A stretch of 64,000 bases of DNA from Sphaerochaetaceae bacterium (GTDB lineage: Bacteria > Spirochaetota > Spirochaetia > Sphaerochaetales > Sphaerochaetaceae), in contig JAQQAI010000089.1 of the NCBI GenBank assembly GCA_028532915.1, positions 248,001 to 312,000 of the forward strand, read 5' to 3'. Numbering within the stretch: position 1 is the stretch's first letter; every line of letters starts with the position of its first letter. The position numbers were made by a program, and so were the translations under genes. The notes beneath the pieces are model-generated. The model was given only the letters and a program-made list of their open reading frames with translations. It had not been told where the DNA came from and did no database searches. Of the stretch, positions 28,915 through 64,000 are shown one piece after another.

Positions 28915-30930
28915 ATGAATTCTTCTCTCCTCTCTACTCTCAATGAAGGTCAACGACAGTCTGTTCTCACAACCGAAGGACCTCTTCTCATCATCGCAGG
29001 GGCCGGTTCCGGTAAAACTAAAATGATCACCCACAGGATCGCCTATCTTCTCGAGTCCGGGGTGCAGGAGAAAGAGATCCTTGCTCTTACATTCACGAAT
29101 AAAGCAGGAAACGAAATGAGCGAACGTATTCGCTCTCTTACCGGCAAGCCGCTCAAGGACCTTCTCACCACGACATTCCACTCTTTCGCTTTGAGAATCC
29201 TGAAGAAGCATATCCATCATCTCGGATTCCATCACAATTTCACGATCTACGACGGGCAGGACTGCACTGCAGTGTTCAAGGAAGTCCTTCGCGAAAAAGA
29301 GTACGATATCGCATCCTTCGATATCAGAGCCCTACTCGCTGTTCACAGTGAGATCAAAACCTCACGGATAAAAAGTCACCCGCTGTACACACCTGACATA
29401 GCCTCGCTCTTCGAGACATATGAGCAGCATATGAAACTGTATAATGCTCTCGATTTCGATGATCTGATAATAAACACCCTGAAACTCTTTGAAGAATTCC
29501 CCCATGTCCTCGAACAGGTGCGGTCCAGATTCACTCATATCATGGTCGACGAATTTCAGGACACTTCAGCCATGCAGTACAGGCTCATCCATCATCTTGC
29601 TCAGGAACATCGCAACATCTGCATCGTCGGTGATGATGATCAGTCCATCTACTCCTGGAGAGGAGCAAACTACCAGAATATCGTCCAGTTCGAGACGGAC
29701 TTTCCCGAACGTAAAGAGATCTTCCTCGACAGGAACTACCGCTCGAGCAACACAATTCTTTCTGCAGCCAACCAGCTGATAGTCAACAACAGTGACAGGA
29801 AGGAAAAGACGCTGTGGACCGACAGTGATAACGGAGAGACGATCATCACCTTGGAGAGCGAAGACGGTGAAGATGAGGCTAGAACAATCATAGAGCAGAT
29901 GAGGTCCGTCAGTTTCAGAGAGCAGCTCGGATGGTCATCTTTCGGGATTCTTGTGAGAACGAACCATCTGCTGCCGACACTCGAGAACGCCTTCATGCTC
30001 GAACAGATACCTGTTTCAGTAACAGGCGGGCAGAGCTTCTTCGAGCGCAAGGAGGTCAAAGACCTCATCGCCTATATGAGAGTGTTCGTCAACCTCAACG
30101 ACGATATCGCACTTTTGAGAATCATCAACACCCCGAGAAGAAAGATCGGTCTGGCGACTCTCTCAGCGGTACGGCATATCAAAGATGCTCTGCATATCTC
30201 ATACTGGGAGGCTATAGCCCATATTCTTGAACATAAAGAAGATTATCCTTCATCCCGGATAAAAGCCCTTCAGCAGTTCTACGATCTCATAGAGGAGTAT
30301 CAGTCACTCTTTTTCCAGGGCGGAAGGAGAAAGAGCAAGGTGCTGCATTCACTGCTTGAGAGGATAGAATACCGCAGTTTCCTTCTATGTGAATATCCCG
30401 GGAATGAGAATGGTGCGTTATGGCGGTATTCCTCCATGGAAACGTTTTTGAAACTCTTTTCAAGATGGGAAAATGATCCTGAGAACTATGAGAACAACAT
30501 CTATGAATATCTTCAGCGTCTGATGCTGCAGATGAGAGAACAGCAGGATAAAGAGAAAGGGGAAGAACGTGTCTCGCTGATGACGATGCATTCTGCAAAA
30601 GGACTTGAATTCGACACGGTCTTTCTGGCGGGAGTCGAGGATCATATCATCCCCCATAGAAGGACGATAGAGGAGAATGAAAAGGCACTGGAAGAGGAAC
30701 GGAGACTCTTCTATGTTGCAATCACCCGGGCGAAGAAACGGCTTTATATATCCTATGCGAAACAAAGAAAGGTGGGCAGTGATTATATGACAACATCTCC
30801 CTCCCGATTTCTTGAAGAGATCTCTGCCGACCTGTTTTCGTTTCCTACAGAAGAAGAACAGATGAGCACCGACGAACATCTCGAGAGGCTCTCTTCTCTG
30901 GCCGCGTTCCTTGAGTCTAAAGAAGCTTAA
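28915..30930 (+). CDS. UvrD/PcrA-type 3'-5' DNA helicase
   Basis: 671 aa from MNSSLLSTLNEGQRQS, using GGAG at 28905-28908 (an ATG 12 nt upstream has no SD). Superfamily 1A motifs in order: AGAGSGKT (I), TFTNKAGNEM (Ia), VDEFQDTSAMQY (II), GDDDQSIYSWRGAN (III), LDRNYRSSNTIL (IV), LMTMHSAKGLEFDTVFLAGV (V) and ERRLFYVAITRAKKRLY (VI). It is shorter at the C-terminus than PcrA (about 720-740) and lacks a typical RNA-polymerase-interacting tail. Roles in repair and conflict resolution are expected. Last gene of its operon. Confidence 0.93.
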   Translation: MNSSLLSTLNEGQRQSVLTTEGPLLIIAGAGSGKTKMITHRIAYLLESGVQEKEILALTFTNKAGNEMSERIRSLTGKPLKDLLTTTFHSFALRILKKHIHHLGFHHNFTIYDGQDCTAVFKEVLREKEYDIASFDIRALLAVHSEIKTSRIKSHPLYTPDIASLFETYEQHMKLYNALDFDDLIINTLKLFEEFPHVLEQVRSRFTHIMVDEFQDTSAMQYRLIHHLAQEHRNICIVGDDDQSIYSWRGANYQNIVQFETDFPERKEIFLDRNYRSSNTILSAANQLIVNNSDRKEKTLWTDSDNGETIITLESEDGEDEARTIIEQMRSVSFREQLGWSSFGILVRTNHLLPTLENAFMLEQIPVSVTGGQSFFERKEVKDLIAYMRVFVNLNDDIALLRIINTPRRKIGLATLSAVRHIKDALHISYWEAIAHILEHKEDYPSSRIKALQQFYDLIEEYQSLFFQGGRRKSKVLHSLLERIEYRSFLLCEYPGNENGALWRYSSMETFLKLFSRWENDPENYENNIYEYLQRLMLQMREQQDKEKGEERVSLMTMHSAKGLEFDTVFLAGVEDHIIPHRRTIEENEKALEEERRLFYVAITRAKKRLYISYAKQRKVGSDYMTTSPSRFLEEISADLFSFPTEEEQMSTDEHLERLSSLAAFLESKEA

Positions 30931-31061
30931 ATAAATATAACAATTATATTTTATTTGTATAATTTTTATATAATATAAATATAATTTACATCTTATTTAT
31001 CCTATTATTAATATCGTTTTCATATAGGTTAGCGGTAAAAGACCAACAAAAATCATATAAG
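30931..31061. other. Very AT-rich spacer between the helicase and par cassette
   Basis: 131 nt of almost pure A/T with runs of TATAA/ATATT near 30935-31015. It lies downstream of both converging genes. No G/C hairpin for termination, no iterated motif as clear as that upstream of parA, and no coding frame. Confidence 0.5.
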
Positions 31062-31301
31062 TCATTTTTCGGCATATTTTTTGCTGAACTCTTTGAGTGC
31101 AAATCGGATACCGCCGGCCCAACCGAGTCCCATATCATGAAACATCTCTTCCAGTTCTTTCTTGAATGAAGGTTCGATGGAGAAGGTTGTCAATATCTTT
31201 TTTTCTTTCTGGAAAGGTTTCTCTCCATTGAACACTTGAGCGGCCTTATGAACGCTGTCGTAATGGACCTCCAATTCTCCCGGATTCTTCTTCAATGCCA
31301 T
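31062..31301 (-). CDS. Small ribbon-helix-helix-like protein, probable partition partner of ParA
   Basis: 79 aa from ATG 31301, with GGAG spaced 6 nt inside the end of parA; only 2 nt separate the parA stop. The first 33 residues are polar and probably flexible. Residues 36-42 (ILTTFSI) form a strand, 44-57 a helix, then GLGW and a second helix at 61-76 (AGGIRFALKEFSKK): the shape of a CopG/Arc RHH domain like ParG or omega. There is no ParB HTH or CTPase motif. Co-expression with ParA suggests it binds the iterons upstream. Fold assignment is by eye. Confidence 0.65.
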   Translation of the reverse strand: MALKKNPGELEVHYDSVHKAAQVFNGEKPFQKEKKILTTFSIEPSFKKELEEMFHDMGLGWAGGIRFALKEFSKKYAEK

Positions 31302-31303
31302 GA

Positions 31304-32065
31304 TTAACTCCATATGTTTTGTGATATCTCTGTTATCGACCGAAGAGTCTGTTTCTTCAATCCCTTGCCGCGCATTTTGAATAATTGAGGCGCAGTATGC
31401 GATTCCTGAGATTTTCTGAACACGGGATCAACTGCGATCTTATATATCGAATATTCCCCTTTCAACGCAACACGCAGAATCTCCTTATGCTGTTCTATCC
31501 GCTCATCAAAACTGTTGATGATCACTTTGTTGTGGACCACAGAACTGTTGAATCGCTTTTTTATACCTTCCAGTTCATGAATGAAGATCTCCAGACCGTC
31601 GAGAGAGAATATCTCGGGTGTCATCGGAGTGATGATCTCGTCACTTGCAATAAGTGCCGAAGTTTCAAGGTTTCCGAGACCGGGTGAAAGATCGAGAACG
31701 ATGTGATCATACTCTTTGGAAAGCTGTTTTACCAGATCGAAAATCACATATGGTTCAGACTTTATGACCTGTTCCCCATACTTTTTCAGATCTCCTCCGA
31801 TTCCGAAGGAGGGAAGTATGTAGAGGTTCTTCATCGACCTTACAGGTACAACCGCTTCATGAATAAAACATCTTCCCTGCAGCACATCCGATACTTCATA
31901 TTTCGTCTTATCGATGAGAAACCAGGACGAGGCATTCCCCTGAGGATCAAGATCGACGAGTATCGTTTTCGCTCCCTGCATGGCAGATTGACATGAAATA
32001 GTGCCCGAGATTGTAGTCTTACCTACTCCTCCTTTCTGTAAATGAAAAGATATCGTTTTACTCAT
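31304..32065 (-). CDS. ParA-family partition ATPase (small, type Ib-like)
   Basis: 253 aa from MSKTISFHLQKGGVGKTTIS (ATG 32065); the frame extends 12 codons upstream across the promoter and operator. Deviant Walker A KGGVGKTT (residues 11-18) with the signature Lys, Walker A' ILVDLDPQGNASSWF, and Walker B IVLDLSPGLGNLETSAL. It lacks the N-terminal HTH domain of P1-type ParA, so it matches the small ParA of type Ib cassettes, which use an RHH partner and an upstream centromere, both apparently present here. Chromosomal Soj would instead have a ParB neighbour. No clear SD. Confidence 0.88.
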   Translation of the reverse strand: MSKTISFHLQKGGVGKTTISGTISCQSAMQGAKTILVDLDPQGNASSWFLIDKTKYEVSDVLQGRCFIHEAVVPVRSMKNLYILPSFGIGGDLKKYGEQVIKSEPYVIFDLVKQLSKEYDHIVLDLSPGLGNLETSALIASDEIITPMTPEIFSLDGLEIFIHELEGIKKRFNSSVVHNKVIINSFDERIEQHKEILRVALKGEYSIYKIAVDPVFRKSQESHTAPQLFKMRGKGLKKQTLRSITEISQNIWS

Positions 32066-32074
32066 AAATAATTT

Positions 32075-32115
32075 ATACCTTACGGTATTATAAAAGCGCA
32101 ACGGGATTAACGCAA
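32075..32115 (-). promoter_or_regulatory. parA promoter with an inverted repeat at the start site
   Basis: On the minus strand: TTGCGT (32110-32115), 17-bp spacer, perfect TATAAT (32087-32092). An inverted repeat ATACC-GTAA-GGTAT (32075-32088) overlaps the -10 and the predicted start of transcription, a position expected for an autoregulatory operator. The transcript leader before the ATG would be about 15 nt. Confidence 0.75.
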
Positions 32116-32162
32116 GGATTAAATTATAAACGATACAATATTAATCTATTCTCAAATCCTAT

Positions 32163-32281
32163 ACTATACAAATATGTACACAATAGTATTCTTATGCGGT
32201 TTATTACTGTAATGATATAGAAACTATATAAGAATTAACATCTATCATTTTACTATCATAATACTATAGGTTCTATACTAT
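32163..32281 (-). repeat. ATAGT iteron array upstream of parA, candidate centromere
   Basis: Read on the parA strand, ATAGT recurs at plus-strand positions 32277-32281, 32263-32267, 32252-32256, 32223-32227 and 32163-32167, with one inverted copy at 32183-32187. The adjacent pair ATAGTATTATG/ATAGTAAAATG is a tandem 11-bp repeat (9 of 11 identical), one helical turn apart, with ATAG continuing. The array lies 100-215 nt upstream of parA in otherwise gene-free AT-rich DNA. Type Ib partition sites are short boxes for RHH proteins arranged like this. Confidence 0.55.
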
Positions 32282-32358
32282 TTATTGTCGCCGGGCCGCT
32301 TTTGTGAATCCTGGTCCTTCAAATTGATAAGGTATCGTTTCTCAAGTTCCGATAATAA

Positions 32359-56298: not shown

Positions 56299-56979
56299 AT
56301 GGAACAGTTGACAGCGACGCCATTCTTCGGTCTGAGCCTTACCATAACAACCTTCATGGCAGGACGCTTTCTCGCGAGGAGAATACGGCTTGCCATTGCA
56401 AACGAGATGATCATTGCGATCCTTCTGTGTCTTGCCGTCATGTACATTTTCGACATCAGAGTCGAACAGTATATTCAAAGCAGTGCGGCCCTTAATTTCA
56501 TGATCATTCCGGCAACCATAGCTCTTGCCTATCAGGTATATGAGCAGATATCCTACGTGAAAGCCTATCTCCTACCGCTTCTTGTAGGGACGATCGTAGG
56601 GTCCGCCGTTTCGATCGGTTCGGTGCTGCTCCTTCTCAGGATCTTCCCTCTTCCAGATATTCTCGGCCGATCACTGATTCCGAAATCTGTAACCACTGCG
56701 ATAGCGATGGAGGTGAGCACACTTCTCGGTGGCGAACCTTCGATCACGATACTGGCCGTGGTGTTCACGGGTTTCACCGGAATTCTGATCAATCCATTCC
56801 TCATAAAAGTACTCAAGGTGAAAGACCCGGTGGTCACGGGGCTCGGGTTCGGCATCAGTGCTCACGTGATAGGAACCGCGAAAGCTTTCGAATATGGTAA
56901 GGTCGAAGGAGCTATGGCATCAATCGCGATCTTCTTCACCGGGGTCGCCACGGTTGTGTTCTCGCTACTGCTCATCTAA
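56299..56979 (+). CDS. lrgB: LrgB/CidB-family membrane protein, probable pyruvate facilitator subunit
   Basis: 226 aa, about six to seven helices. Family signature LIPKSVTTAIAMEVSTLLGG, followed by VVFTGFTGILINPFLIKVLK and the conserved GFGISAHVIGTAKAFEYG. Acts with LrgA. The 3' end overlaps the AraC gene tail-to-tail by 15 nt. Confidence 0.92.
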   Translation: MEQLTATPFFGLSLTITTFMAGRFLARRIRLAIANEMIIAILLCLAVMYIFDIRVEQYIQSSAALNFMIIPATIALAYQVYEQISYVKAYLLPLLVGTIVGSAVSIGSVLLLLRIFPLPDILGRSLIPKSVTTAIAMEVSTLLGGEPSITILAVVFTGFTGILINPFLIKVLKVKDPVVTGLGFGISAHVIGTAKAFEYGKVEGAMASIAIFFTGVATVVFSLLLI

Positions 56980-57795
56980 AAGTATCTGATGCTGAGGACC
57001 GATCTTCTGCAGGTAGTTGCGCCGGTAGTAGGTCGGAGCAAGACCGGTTTTCGCTTTGAACTGTTTTGAGAAATGGAACTCACTCGAAAATGACAGAGTA
57101 GCAGCTATTTCCTTTATCGACAGCTCCGTACAGGTCAGCAGCGCGCTGGCAGCCTCGATTTTCAATTTCATATAATACTTCATCGGCGTCTGATGCATCC
57201 GCTCTCCGAACAGTCTGATGAAGTAGCTTTCGGTAAGATGAAGCTCACTAGCAAGTTCGGAAAGTGTCAGATTTGCCATCACATTCTTCTGCATGATCCT
57301 TAGGGCCTTCTCGAGATGTCTTGACTCATTGTCGTTATTCAGTCCCTTCCTTCCGTCCTGCACCTGATACAACAGTGATGCGATCTGGTGACAGGCCGAC
57401 TGATGCCGGTTGTATGAAGAAGAGAGAGCCTTCTCCTTGATCTCCTCGAAAAAGAACCGGTAGTTGGTACCGATATGATAGGGTGAATTCGCCTGCTGCT
57501 GTTCGAACAGGGAAGTAAGTGCCGTCTCGTTCTTTGAAAGTCTCAGAAGTATCGCATAATAGGTTATGGGATTTGAAGAACTCGCTTTTATCGTATGGAC
57601 AATCTGAGGCAGAGAGACGAACATAGTACCGGGGCTTATGGTGTAGCTAGTACGATTATTGATAAATTGCCCGTCACCTCCGAGAAAGTAATGAATCTCA
57701 TACTCATCTTCTTTGTGAGCATGAGTTCGCCCGTGCCATTTGAGTTCATTCTGATTCTTCATCTGATAAACAAAAACTGCGTCGACAATTTTCAT
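56965..57795 (-). CDS. AraC-family regulator, probable xylose regulator
   Basis: 276 aa. N-terminal cupin sensor (THAHKEDEYEIHYFLGGDGQ and SYTISPGTMFVSLPQIVHT). The C-terminal double HTH runs from about residue 170: LTLSELASELHLTESYFIRL with FGERMHQTPMKYYMKLKIEA, then IKEIAATLSFSSEFHFSKQF and TGLAPTYYRR. Divergent from xylB with a 79-nt gap bearing an inverted repeat, so xylBA control is the likely job. Confidence 0.88.
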   Translation of the reverse strand: MKIVDAVFVYQMKNQNELKWHGRTHAHKEDEYEIHYFLGGDGQFINNRTSYTISPGTMFVSLPQIVHTIKASSSNPITYYAILLRLSKNETALTSLFEQQQANSPYHIGTNYRFFFEEIKEKALSSSYNRHQSACHQIASLLYQVQDGRKGLNNDNESRHLEKALRIMQKNVMANLTLSELASELHLTESYFIRLFGERMHQTPMKYYMKLKIEAASALLTCTELSIKEIAATLSFSSEFHFSKQFKAKTGLAPTYYRRNYLQKIGPQHQILLDEQ

Positions 57796-60911: not shown

Positions 60912-62663
60912 ATGAAAAAGATCTATGATGAGAAGTATTACGAATCGATCATGAAAGAGGGGAAATGGCCGACCACAGTCGAAGCATTCGAAAATAGCGC
61001 AGCCACTTTTCCTGAACGGACTGCATTCAGTAGATTCATAGGAAACGATAAGGAAACTTTTACCTACACGAAGGCGTCTGCTTATATCAAGACGACAGCA
61101 AAGCATCTGAGATCATGCGGGCTGGACAGGGAAGACAAGATCGTCCTGATAGGGAAGAATTCTCCCGGCTGGGCTATGGCTTATCTGGCTATTCACTCGA
61201 TCGGCGCCATCGTCGTTCCTCTCGATCATATGAGCGAAAAAGAAAAAGTGGTACAACTCGGTTCGTTCAGCGATGCAAAGGCAATTCTCTGCGATTCCCA
61301 ATGGATCGATCAGCTCTTTGGGACGGAGTGGTTCTCCACACTTACTGCTGTCCTCTCTCTGGAAGATGATCACAAAGGATATCACAGTCTCTTCAGTCTT
61401 TCAGAAACAGACGAGAATCTTTTGCTGACGAAGCCGGCTATGGATGATATCGCTGTCATCCTTTATACCAGCGGGACTACAGGAAACGAAAAAGGTGTCC
61501 TCCTTACCCATAAAGCTCTCATGAGCGATGCCTATCAGGCTGCAGACCCCTATTTTCTCACGCTGACGGAACATGATGTTTTCTACGGACTGCTGCCGCT
61601 TCACCATTCGTATGCGATGACAGCAGTCTTCCTCGAATCGATCATACACGGGTCGGAACTCCTTTTCTCTTCCAAGGTTGTCATATCGAGAAACCTTCAG
61701 GAAATGAGAATGGGCAAGGTAACCAATCTGCTCGGGATTCCCCTTCTGTTCAACAAACTCCTTACAGGACTGATGAAGAAGGTCAGAGAGAAGGGATTGC
61801 CCGCCTATATCCTGATCAGGACACTGATGCACATCAATTACTTTTTCAGACGCGCTTTTCATATCAATTTCGGAAAGAGATGGTTCGCACCTCTTCTTGA
61901 CGGTATCGGAATGAAACACAATACACTCACTATCTGCGGCGGAGGACCTCTCTCTCCCAAGGTATTTCGTCAGTATCAGCAGCTGGGAGTCGATTTCATA
62001 CAGGGATACGGACTGACTGAGACCGCCCCTATTCTGACTCTCGTATCCCTTGACCACATCAACGTCAACAGTATCGGGCAGATATTCCCTCTCGTCGACA
62101 TGAGAATAGACGACCCGGACCTTCTCGGTGTAGGGGAAATACAGGTCAAAGGGCCGAATGTCTGCTCGGGATATTTCAGAGATGAGAAGGCGACGGCGGA
62201 ATTGTTCACCGAAGACGGCTATCTGAAAACCGGTGATCTGGGATCGATCGATTCGAGAGGATTCGTCTACATCAAAGGAAGAGCGAAGAATCTCATAGTC
62301 ACCGAGGGTGGAAAGAATGTCTTCCCCGAAGAGATCGAAGAGCTTATCTATGCTTACGGACAGGTCGAACAGGTAGTCATCCGCTCTTATGTGCCAGACA
62401 AAACAATGAAAGGAGAACTTATCGAGGCTCTCATCTATCCCGATAAAGAATATTTCAAAGAACACGGAATTGATGAACAGCAGATAGGAACGGAGATAGA
62501 CACCCTGATTCATTCGGTCAACAAAAAACTTCCACTCTACAAGAAAGTATCAAAGATAACGATCCTGAGTGAAAGTCTTGAGATGACCAGTACGAAGAAG
62601 ATCAAGCGAGGCAAGATTTCCCGTACGATAGAGAGAATGATCGGTCAGTCAACTATTCGATGA
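60912..62663 (+). CDS. AMP-forming acyl-CoA synthetase (long-chain fatty acid type)
   Basis: 583 aa adenylate-forming enzyme: P-loop ILYTSGTTGNEKGVLLTHKA, YGLTETAPILTLVS, and the C-terminal domain hinge TGDLGSIDSRGFVYIKGRAK with NLIVTEGGKNVFPEEIEELI. It would activate a carboxylic acid with ATP and CoA; chain length is not certain. A TATAAT (about 60879) and AAGAAGAG lie upstream of the ATG. It sits between xylose and fucose genes with no obvious link. Tail-to-tail overlap of 11 nt with fucU. Confidence 0.88.
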   Translation: MKKIYDEKYYESIMKEGKWPTTVEAFENSAATFPERTAFSRFIGNDKETFTYTKASAYIKTTAKHLRSCGLDREDKIVLIGKNSPGWAMAYLAIHSIGAIVVPLDHMSEKEKVVQLGSFSDAKAILCDSQWIDQLFGTEWFSTLTAVLSLEDDHKGYHSLFSLSETDENLLLTKPAMDDIAVILYTSGTTGNEKGVLLTHKALMSDAYQAADPYFLTLTEHDVFYGLLPLHHSYAMTAVFLESIIHGSELLFSSKVVISRNLQEMRMGKVTNLLGIPLLFNKLLTGLMKKVREKGLPAYILIRTLMHINYFFRRAFHINFGKRWFAPLLDGIGMKHNTLTICGGGPLSPKVFRQYQQLGVDFIQGYGLTETAPILTLVSLDHINVNSIGQIFPLVDMRIDDPDLLGVGEIQVKGPNVCSGYFRDEKATAELFTEDGYLKTGDLGSIDSRGFVYIKGRAKNLIVTEGGKNVFPEEIEELIYAYGQVEQVVIRSYVPDKTMKGELIEALIYPDKEYFKEHGIDEQQIGTEIDTLIHSVNKKLPLYKKVSKITILSESLEMTSTKKIKRGKISRTIERMIGQSTIR

Positions 62664-63078
62664 CGCCTTTTTTCAGAATGATGTTCGCATAGAGGGAACT
62701 CTCACTTGTAGCCACTATGGCATAGGCCTTCTTTGCCCTTTCATAGAATGCAAAGCGTTCGATGAAACCGAAGCCTTTGAAGTGTACGTCTCCTTCCTTT
62801 GCGATCTTCTCATAGGTGTCCCAGATCGGAGTCTCACACGGGTCTCCGGGAACTTTCTCCATCAAAAACGCATTTGCCTCGAATCTGTCAAGGGGAAGAA
62901 GTTTGAGCATTCCTTCAAGGATCTCTGGTACTCCCAGACCGTCAAGCCTTACGAGCCTCTTGGAATAGGCGGCAGCGGGAAAGTTTCCGTCCCCGATGAC
63001 GATCTCGTCACCGTGACCCATTTCCATCATGATTTTCAACAGTTCGGGACTCAAGAGAGGGGGAATGTTTTTGAGCAT
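62653..63078 (-). CDS. fucU: L-fucose mutarotase
   Basis: 141 aa from MLKNIPPLLSPELLKI (ATG 63078, AAGGAGA upstream); the frame is open 44 codons more through the divergent promoter. RbsD/FucU family: LLKIMMEMGHGDEIVIGDGN with FPAA, MEKVPGDPCETPIWD and the C-terminal FERFAFYERAKKAYAIVATSE-type segment ending SLYANIILKKGVI. Interconverts fucose anomers before isomerisation. Divergent from fucI. Confidence 0.93.
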   Translation of the reverse strand: MLKNIPPLLSPELLKIMMEMGHGDEIVIGDGNFPAAAYSKRLVRLDGLGVPEILEGMLKLLPLDRFEANAFLMEKVPGDPCETPIWDTYEKIAKEGDVHFKGFGFIERFAFYERAKKAYAIVATSESSLYANIILKKGVIE

Positions 63079-63133
63079 TGGAATCTCCTTTTTTATAGAT
63101 AATGATTGCAAGATACAATTTTGCATGCGATAA

Positions 63134-63147
63134 TGTAAACGATTACA
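63134..63147. promoter_or_regulatory. LacI-family-type operator between fucU and fucI
   Basis: TGTAAACGATTACA, a near-perfect palindrome with the central CG typical of LacI/GalR-family sites (one symmetric position pair broken). It lies 38 nt before fucI and 56 nt before fucU, about where the fucI -35 region should be. Confidence 0.6.
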
Positions 63148-63184
63148 CGCCCTTTCGAGTTTACTATAGCATAGGAGGAGCCAT

Positions 63185-64000
63185 ATGGCAAATAATAAAA
63201 AAATCAACATTAACAGTGAAAAACGGTATGCAGGAGATCTTCCGAAGATCGGTATCAGACCGACTATCGACGGAAGAAGACGAGGAGTCAGAGAATCGCT
63301 TGAAGATCAGACGATGAACATGGCAAAGGCCGCTGCAGAGCTTATCAGTTCATCTTTGCGTCATACTAACGGAGAAAGAGTCGAATGTGTCATTGCAGAT
63401 ACCACTATCGGCGGTGTTCTCGAATCAGCACAGTGCAAAGCGAAATTCAAAAAAGAGAATGTAGCCGTTACACTTACTGTCACACCGTGCTGGTGCTACG
63501 GGACCGAGACATTCGATGACGATCCTCTTACAGTGAAAGGCGTATGGGGATTCAACGGAACAGAACGTCCCGGCGCTGTCTACCTTGCCGCTGTCCTGGC
63601 CGCCCATTCACAGAAAGGACTTCCCGCATTCGGTATCTACGGCAGAGATGTACAGGATAACGACGACACTTCAATCCCAGAAGATGTGAAGACAAAGATT
63701 CTCCGCTTCGCCCGTGCCGGTCTTGCCGTTGCGACAATGAGAGATAAATCATATCTGTCTATCGGCGGTATGTCGATGGGCATCGCAGGTTCAATCGTCG
63801 ACCAGGACTTCATCCAGTCATATCTCGGCATGCGGACCGAAGTCGTTGATATGAGTGAGTTCGAACGGCGTGTCGAAGAAGAGATCTACGATCCCAAGGA
63901 ACTTGAACTTGCGAAAAAATGGGTCCGAGAAAACTGTCACGAGGCCGAAGACACAGTCAATCCTCCCGAATATCTTAGAAGCGCTGAACAGAGAGACAAG
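63185..64000 (+). CDS. fucI: L-fucose isomerase, N-terminal part (runs past window end)
   Basis: 272 codons are visible from ATG 63185 (GGAGGAG 8 nt upstream) to the last base, out of about 590. Family segments: [94 protein letters not shown] and [20 protein letters not shown]. Converts L-fucose to L-fuculose. Divergent from fucU with a shared LacI-type operator. Confidence 0.95.

Follow-up and report, generated by a model that had tools for sequence, protein, structure and literature searches.

The cassette lies on the reverse strand of the window, by which the whole 64,000-nucleotide stretch of DNA analysed is meant, and consists of parA2 and a gene for a small ribbon-helix-helix (RHH) partner, with repeats on both sides of the pair. 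By window coordinates, the features are as follows.

30931..31061, strand not assigned: downstream array, made up of AT-rich repeats of the ATAT..WWW.. type in 11-bp phase, in the gap from the RHH gene to the UvrD gene
31062..31301, minus strand: RHH partner gene, 79 aa, with a basic N-terminal tail (MALKK ... KAAQVF) and a ribbon-helix-helix domain (about residues 36–76)
31304..32065, minus strand: parA2, a Walker-type ParA without HTH domain, 253 aa, ATG at 32065, Walker A KGGVGKTT near residue 10
32066..32115, minus strand: putative promoter TTGCGT-17-TATAAT and inverted repeat ATACC-GTAA-GGTAT, read by eye, before the parA2 ATG
32154..32285, strand not assigned: upstream repeats, clearest at 32215–32236 and 32242–32267

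The preliminary description of this DNA had noted a small ParA lacking an HTH domain, with a 79-aa RHH-like partner 2 nt behind it, and both statements were confirmed. AAA_31 spans residues 4–176 of the 253-residue ParA2 (E 2e-35), and no HTH domain was found with Pfam; across ParA2 homologues, the Walker A motif is unbroken in 35 of 37. Two nucleotides separate the parA2 stop from the RHH gene ATG at 31301, which is the start conserved across homologues (MALKK), and use of an alternative upstream ATG at 31313 would make the genes overlap by 10 nt. The RHH protein as a single sequence gave no match to Pfam or NCBIfam. When a profile of 30 homologues was compared with PDB sequences, CopG was the best match, in register, over profile positions 40–77 (E 0.008). 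In an AlphaFold2 model, helices occupy both RHH positions (44–56 and 61–76), with a block pLDDT of 84–95 from residue 41 on and low pLDDT in the tail; most of the ten best matches in a fold search with this model are RHH proteins, none of them significant (CopG, NikA, MatP, SvtR, an antitoxin, and CdbA). The profile match and the model together indicate that the partner is an RHH protein. Its tail is conserved and basic among homologues, with no single invariant arginine. The two genes adjoin one another in 37 of the 39 loci examined, that of the window included.

The neighbours named earlier, UvrD and AsnA, were likewise verified, and the cassette is a real ParA/RHH pair in a housekeeping context. 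The window is on a 356-kb contig of a Sphaerochaetaceae MAG of 2.64 Mb in 96 contigs. A Pfam scan of 49 of its 51 non-overlapping ORFs of at least 120 aa (those at 56965–57795 and 62653–63210 were left out) returned no relaxase, integrase, or phage gene, which bears out the earlier remark that relaxase and phage genes are absent nearby. DnaB and SSB are present in the window, DnaB next to ribosomal protein L9, which is a chromosomal setting, and the remaining genes serve housekeeping and metabolism.

It had been considered that the contig might prove to be a plasmid or chromid. The cassette is found on the same replicon as dnaA in five relatives whose genomes are closed or nearly so, and it is therefore not on a plasmid or chromid; together with synteny and prevalence in the family, described below, this also rules out a plasmid fragment or plasmid contig. 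Chromosomal location bars the cassette from being a plasmid system, not from working like one. By arithmetic on the coordinates, its distance from dnaA is 0.73–0.78 of half the genome (G004 0.78, G024 0.76, G048 0.75, G046 0.73, and G023 0.78; three of the five genomes are from one genus, and G046 is in three contigs). The question, raised at the outset, of whether the genome also has Soj/Spo0J can be answered: a separate Soj and one ParB are present within about 7 kb of dnaA. This ParB, on contig C23 beside Soj, is the only ParB_N match in the window's genome. The RHH partner has no ParB domain, and ParA2 is about 31% identical to Soj.

At E 1e-8, the RHH gene was found in 104 of 139 Sphaerochaetaceae genomes, covering 19 of 22 genera and 63 of the 75 good genomes (completeness of 90% or more, contamination of 5% or less). 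A first set of relatives had given 39 of 81 genomes, every one of the 39 belonging to the Sphaerochaetaceae. In a sample of 392 genomes from the phylum, only four RHH profile matches fell outside the family, all with E 0.0009–0.01. By look, most of the weak matches (E 0.0005–0.01) in these four and in some family genomes are RHH proteins of RelB/DinJ type and not orthologues; the one in G366 adjoins another ParA. The gene is nearly always single-copy, a second copy being seen in two MAGs (G457:C151:19185–19376 and G447:C42:1444–1677), where contamination is possible; the second copy in G457 aligns only from profile position 14 and may be without a tail.

Genes from the UvrD/DUF362/RsmB side lie downstream in 30 of 39 loci, whereas upstream 19 of 39 have asnA/xthA/typA and 13 of 39 have genes from the valS side; synteny is conserved on both sides in 24 of 39, a count limited by contig ends. 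ParA2 distances track those of six neighbour proteins (r 0.57–0.85, permutation p 0.001 each). With mean distances of 0.25–0.32 for ParA2, depending on the locus set, against 0.26 for TypA, 0.28 for AsnA, and 0.48 for UvrD, ParA2 is conserved to about the same degree as TypA and AsnA, and better than UvrD. The identity and inheritance of the cassette as a lasting core chromosomal locus of the Sphaerochaetaceae are thus well supported by these comparisons. The RHH gene is missing from 12 of the 75 good genomes, so the cassette is not needed everywhere. When the asnA site was viewed in nine genomes without the cassette, contigs were found to end near the place in G022 and G037, and the asnA neighbourhood differs in g12 and g17; such absences were not taken as clean, dated losses.

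The iterons that the preliminary description had placed upstream of the cassette are visible family-wide. In up to 36 loci with upstream regions of at least 90 bp (L066, with a mis-called or broken parA start, was left out), 5-base words recur at 11 bp 108 times compared with 27.5 in shuffles (z 10.6), and z is 6.2 at 33 bp. The signal is weak in the window sequence taken alone, with 10 lag-11 word matches against 2.7 (shuffle p 0.007) and 2.4 copies of an 11-bp unit found by TRF at 32242–32267. That description had missed the repeats downstream of the RHH gene, and these form the stronger array in the window (12 matches at lag 11 against 2.5, p 0.003; p 0.003 at lag 22; matrix matches at 30928–31032). 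Across 35 family loci, the downstream regions give 138 matches against 37 at lag 11 (z 11.3), and z 8.6 at 22 bp. In 17 AT-rich control intergenic regions, z is 1.3 at lag 11; all 84 control regions pooled reach 4.9 at lag 11, yet 5.2, 5.3, and 5.9 at lags 8, 9, and 12, so the controls have no specific period.

In a motif search, the first EM run returned base composition only, as did later runs at widths 11 and 22, and width 14 gave ATATwAwww..ATA. Once the input had been masked to AT-rich blocks, runs from random starts settled on ATAT..WWW..ATAT..WWW, with the number of sites at the set maximum. This unit reads alike on both strands, as is expected of a site for a symmetric dimer. Motif density is 25.6 per kb in the flanks, 4.1 in other intergenic DNA, and 0.22 in coding DNA, a count that is partly circular because the matrix was trained on the same flanks; independent support for the repeats comes from the lag-11 test with its shuffles and AT-rich controls. 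These results show phased repeats conserved on both flanks, where the RHH protein would bind. Genome-wide, the share of three-unit pattern matches within about 0.9 kb of the cassette indicates clear clustering there in G024 (4 of 5), G048 (5 of 14), and G045 (9 of 15), slight clustering in G000 (3 of 11) and G023 (2 of 5), and none in G004 (0 of 9); the window's genome has 11 matches against 8 in a reversed control, barely above it. G004:C1 also carries an identical AT-rich 26-mer at seven places (e.g. 910485 and 1010514) in either orientation, like a mobile-element end or dispersed repeat. The consensus promoter proposed earlier did not hold up in a consensus scan, which found 6 promoter-like sites where 5.8 are expected. 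A CTTGTA element is common to relatives in the parA2 promoter region, with 26 occurrences against 2.6 expected (L066 again left out).

The nearest plasmid ParA is that of Brachyspira hyodysenteriae plasmid pBHWA1, with 42% identity over 87% of the query. Its gene is followed, 1 bp behind, by a 78-aa gene annotated as a hypothetical protein, whose product scores 22.9 bits against the RHH profile and has a tail starting MPINK. Searched by tblastn against 72,556 plasmid records, the RHH protein itself gave no match, so that its plasmid relatives are visible only through the profile. Treponema plasmids also carry ParA and a small partner, with weaker profile scores (pTS2 9.0, pTS1 3.0, and pTRESU01 0.4 bits). 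A tree, from which L062 and L066 were left out because the string KGGVGK was not found, unites the 35 family ParA2 sequences in one clade (97/89), with pBHWA1 next (95/85). When 11 more ParAs were added, the family remained one clade and its sister group changed; the exact sister is unsure because of long branches. ParA2 relatives with up to 48% identity also occur outside the family, here and there in several families of the class and phylum. Fourteen outside ParA loci were inspected, four of them without an adjacent RHH partner (G403, G323, G196, and G074). Read by eye, the sequences of 12 distinct partners from outside the family begin M[AP][LIV], like MALKK, in 10 cases. On this evidence, family ParA2 is one clade among spirochaete plasmid ParAs with RHH partners. 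The suggestion that the cassette is a captured plasmid module is supported by the pBHWA1 match, the partner 1 bp behind, and the tree, but the capture lies far back in time, and the cassette has since become a core chromosomal locus.

The pBHWA1 pair stands on a 36-kb plasmid, and its upstream repeats differ from those of the cassette in sequence and period. Several near-identical repeats of the GTAGTTTATTTTGTAACGTT type occur upstream of its parA (L122, about 2033–2500) at a spacing near 31 bp and are likely to be the plasmid's centromere. A 21-bp-period array (z 66 at lag 21) was seen upstream of a ParA/small-partner pair in G318 (L190), from a small-genome spirochaete family.

A readable site from which parA2 has disappeared was seen in genus g14 only. 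In G015 and G031 the RHH gene is beside asnA, with about 270 bp of AT-rich DNA between them and no parA2 gene there, and a ParA search at E 1e-10 found nothing in G015, G031, or G043. These three genomes retain ParB, with no Soj matched at their ParB loci (L131, L152, and L153). Their ParB lacks the N-terminal HGLGKG(I) peptide, which is present in G000, G023, and G048, the Soj-bearing genomes with a readable ParB start (that of G022 being mis-called). LG(R/K)GL is given as the ParA-stimulating motif of ParB in the part of PMC9712426 available to us. A ParB without LGKG peptide and with no adjacent Soj, as in g14, recalls the ParB of Borrelia.

The RHH tail shows the same coupling. The motif MA[LI]K[KR] is found in 36 of 37 ParA-bearing loci (L069 being the one without it) and [KR][AV]..[LV]F in all 37, compared with neither of the two ParA-less loci for either motif. 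As the tail motifs were lost along with ParA, the N-terminal tail is the likely contact with ParA2. The lone g14 RHH domains are identical at 44 of 51 residues between two species, with dN 0.16 and saturated synonymous sites, which points to purifying selection; a domain conserved without ParA implies a ParA-independent use, and the ParA step would not be its only one. Beside the lone gene, L082 peaks at lags 9, 12, and 13 as well, and the lag-11 test in L084 has p 0.15. Tail and ParA were lost together in a single evolutionary event, in one genus, known from two genomes for the RHH protein and three for ParB. With both ParAs lost and both partners trimmed, g14 is a natural experiment in which the DNA-binding part of each partner can be viewed apart from the part that contacts ParA.

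We consider it somewhat probable that the locus is a domesticated type Ib-like partition cassette that acts in cis as a second, centromere-like site. A plasmid-type cassette would have entered the chromosome of the Sphaerochaetaceae ancestor and been retained as a core locus. RHH dimers would occupy the 11-bp-phased repeats that flank the operon and so form a partition complex, probably also repressing the operon, and their basic N-terminal tails would contact nucleoid-bound ParA2-ATP and trigger ATP hydrolysis. By following the ParA2 gradient, the complex could move the two copies of the locus apart, or hold them in place, in the distal part of one arm, with origin segregation left to Soj-ParB. 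Gene identity, pairing, vertical inheritance, plasmid ParA ancestry, the phased repeats of the two flanks, and the loss of the tail together with ParA are computed results, and DNA binding, ATPase stimulation, and segregation or movement of the locus are steps that we infer. One point against this explanation is the distance of the cassette from the origin, about 0.75 of the replichore or three quarters of the path to the terminus, an unusual place for a segregation site. As a tentative extension, the Sphaerochaetaceae chromosome may have two centromeres that are independent and differently built, with Soj-ParB at the origin and a plasmid-derived ParA/RHH system on the distal part of one arm, together with a ParA-independent organising role of the RHH complex, as ParB has with SMC; such a role would explain why both DNA-binding proteins outlived both ATPases in g14.

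Type Ib systems have a small ParA without HTH domain, as ParA2 is, and the cassette further has an RHH partner directly downstream and iterated repeats, the putative sites, beside the operon. ParF/ParG of TP228 and delta/omega of pSM19035 are described, in the portion of PMC5016525 available, as having a small RHH partner with a flexible N-terminal tail and repeats beside the operon. The likeness to ParG and omega is one of architecture, and, unlike the plasmid-borne type Ib systems, the cassette is chromosomal (on the dnaA replicon in five relatives and on the 356-kb contig here), vertically inherited, and provided with repeats on both sides. In ParG, the tail that contacts ParA has an arginine finger; the tail here, conserved, basic, and low in pLDDT, was lost along with ParA and has no single invariant arginine. 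SegAB of Sulfolobales archaea, compared by description only, also combines a chromosomal ParA homologue with an RHH partner and binding sites by the operon, but SegB has many chromosomal sites, and a separate Soj-ParB is present in our case (PMC12284271, from the part accessible). In Borrelia, a spirochaete, the non-ParB protein ParZ has its DNA-binding site at its own gene and directs ParA through an N-terminal peptide, and ParB serves SMC; ParZ, again compared by description, controls an origin-linked ParA and is reported from Borreliaceae only in the available part of PMC9712426, whereas here ParB keeps the LGKG peptide in the Soj-bearing genomes G000, G023, and G048. Chromosomal ParABS (Soj/Spo0J) likewise pairs a ParA-type ATPase with an N-terminal peptide on its partner, but that ATPase pairs separately with ParB, and it is ParB that carries the ParB domain.

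Partition cassettes of plasmids are regarded as devices for replicon maintenance, and here one is kept family-wide at a constant place in the chromosome that is not near the origin, alongside an intact-looking origin system. Should the cassette move DNA, then centromeres of more than one kind can exist on a bacterial chromosome, and this family is a system for asking why. Chromosome-encoded ParM systems have been reported (PMC12270681, the part available), which gives some precedent for segregation genes of plasmid type on chromosomes. Literature on Sphaerochaeta, chromosomal ParA/RHH systems, and second partition systems, with subscription journals mostly outside its coverage, yielded no paper on this cassette.

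The conservation of the lone g14 RHH domain, where ParB is retained without Soj as well, would also fit an RHH protein that is mainly a chromosome organiser or regulator in a MatP-, SegB-, or ParB-like role, with the repeats on both flanks as its main binding site and ParA2 as an accessory controlling clustering or turnover rather than a motor separating sisters. MatP and CdbA are among its fold neighbours, none significant, and numerous sites on the chromosome are known for SegB, the RHH protein that partners a chromosomal ParA homologue (PMC12284271, as above). We nevertheless hold this account to be unlikely, as parA2 adjoins the RHH gene in nearly all loci and is conserved like housekeeping genes, and pattern matches group at the cassette in 5 of the 6 genomes searched.

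Type Ib partner proteins double as repressors (PMC5016525, available portion), and the recurrence of CTTGTA in the promoter region of relatives is consistent with an autoregulated two-gene operon in which the repeats are only an operator and the product acts on something else, including a protein cargo placed by ParA2. This is quite improbable, since the second gene too has repeats downstream of it, where an operator is unnecessary, and the adjoining genes, which vary from genus to genus, serve housekeeping or metabolism, with no cargo-like gene linked. The earlier alternative of a chromosomal system for positioning another cargo accordingly found no backing: no cargo gene travels with the cassette, and the candidate sites are at the cassette itself.

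A domesticated partition cassette remains our preferred reading over two further accounts. Like partition systems compete with one another, and related ParA/RHH pairs occur on spirochaete plasmids, so the locus might be one of chromosomal incompatibility, at which ParA, RHH protein, and repeats disturb the partition of incoming plasmids with related cassettes and so exclude them; this is very hard to credit, because the differing repeats upstream of parA on pBHWA1, with their period near 31 bp, make cross-recognition unlikely today. Least credible is a decaying plasmid remnant without function, which would share the plasmid ancestry and which the conservation results make unlikely: Walker A motifs intact in nearly every ParA2, conservation equal to that of TypA and AsnA, and phased repeats kept family-wide.
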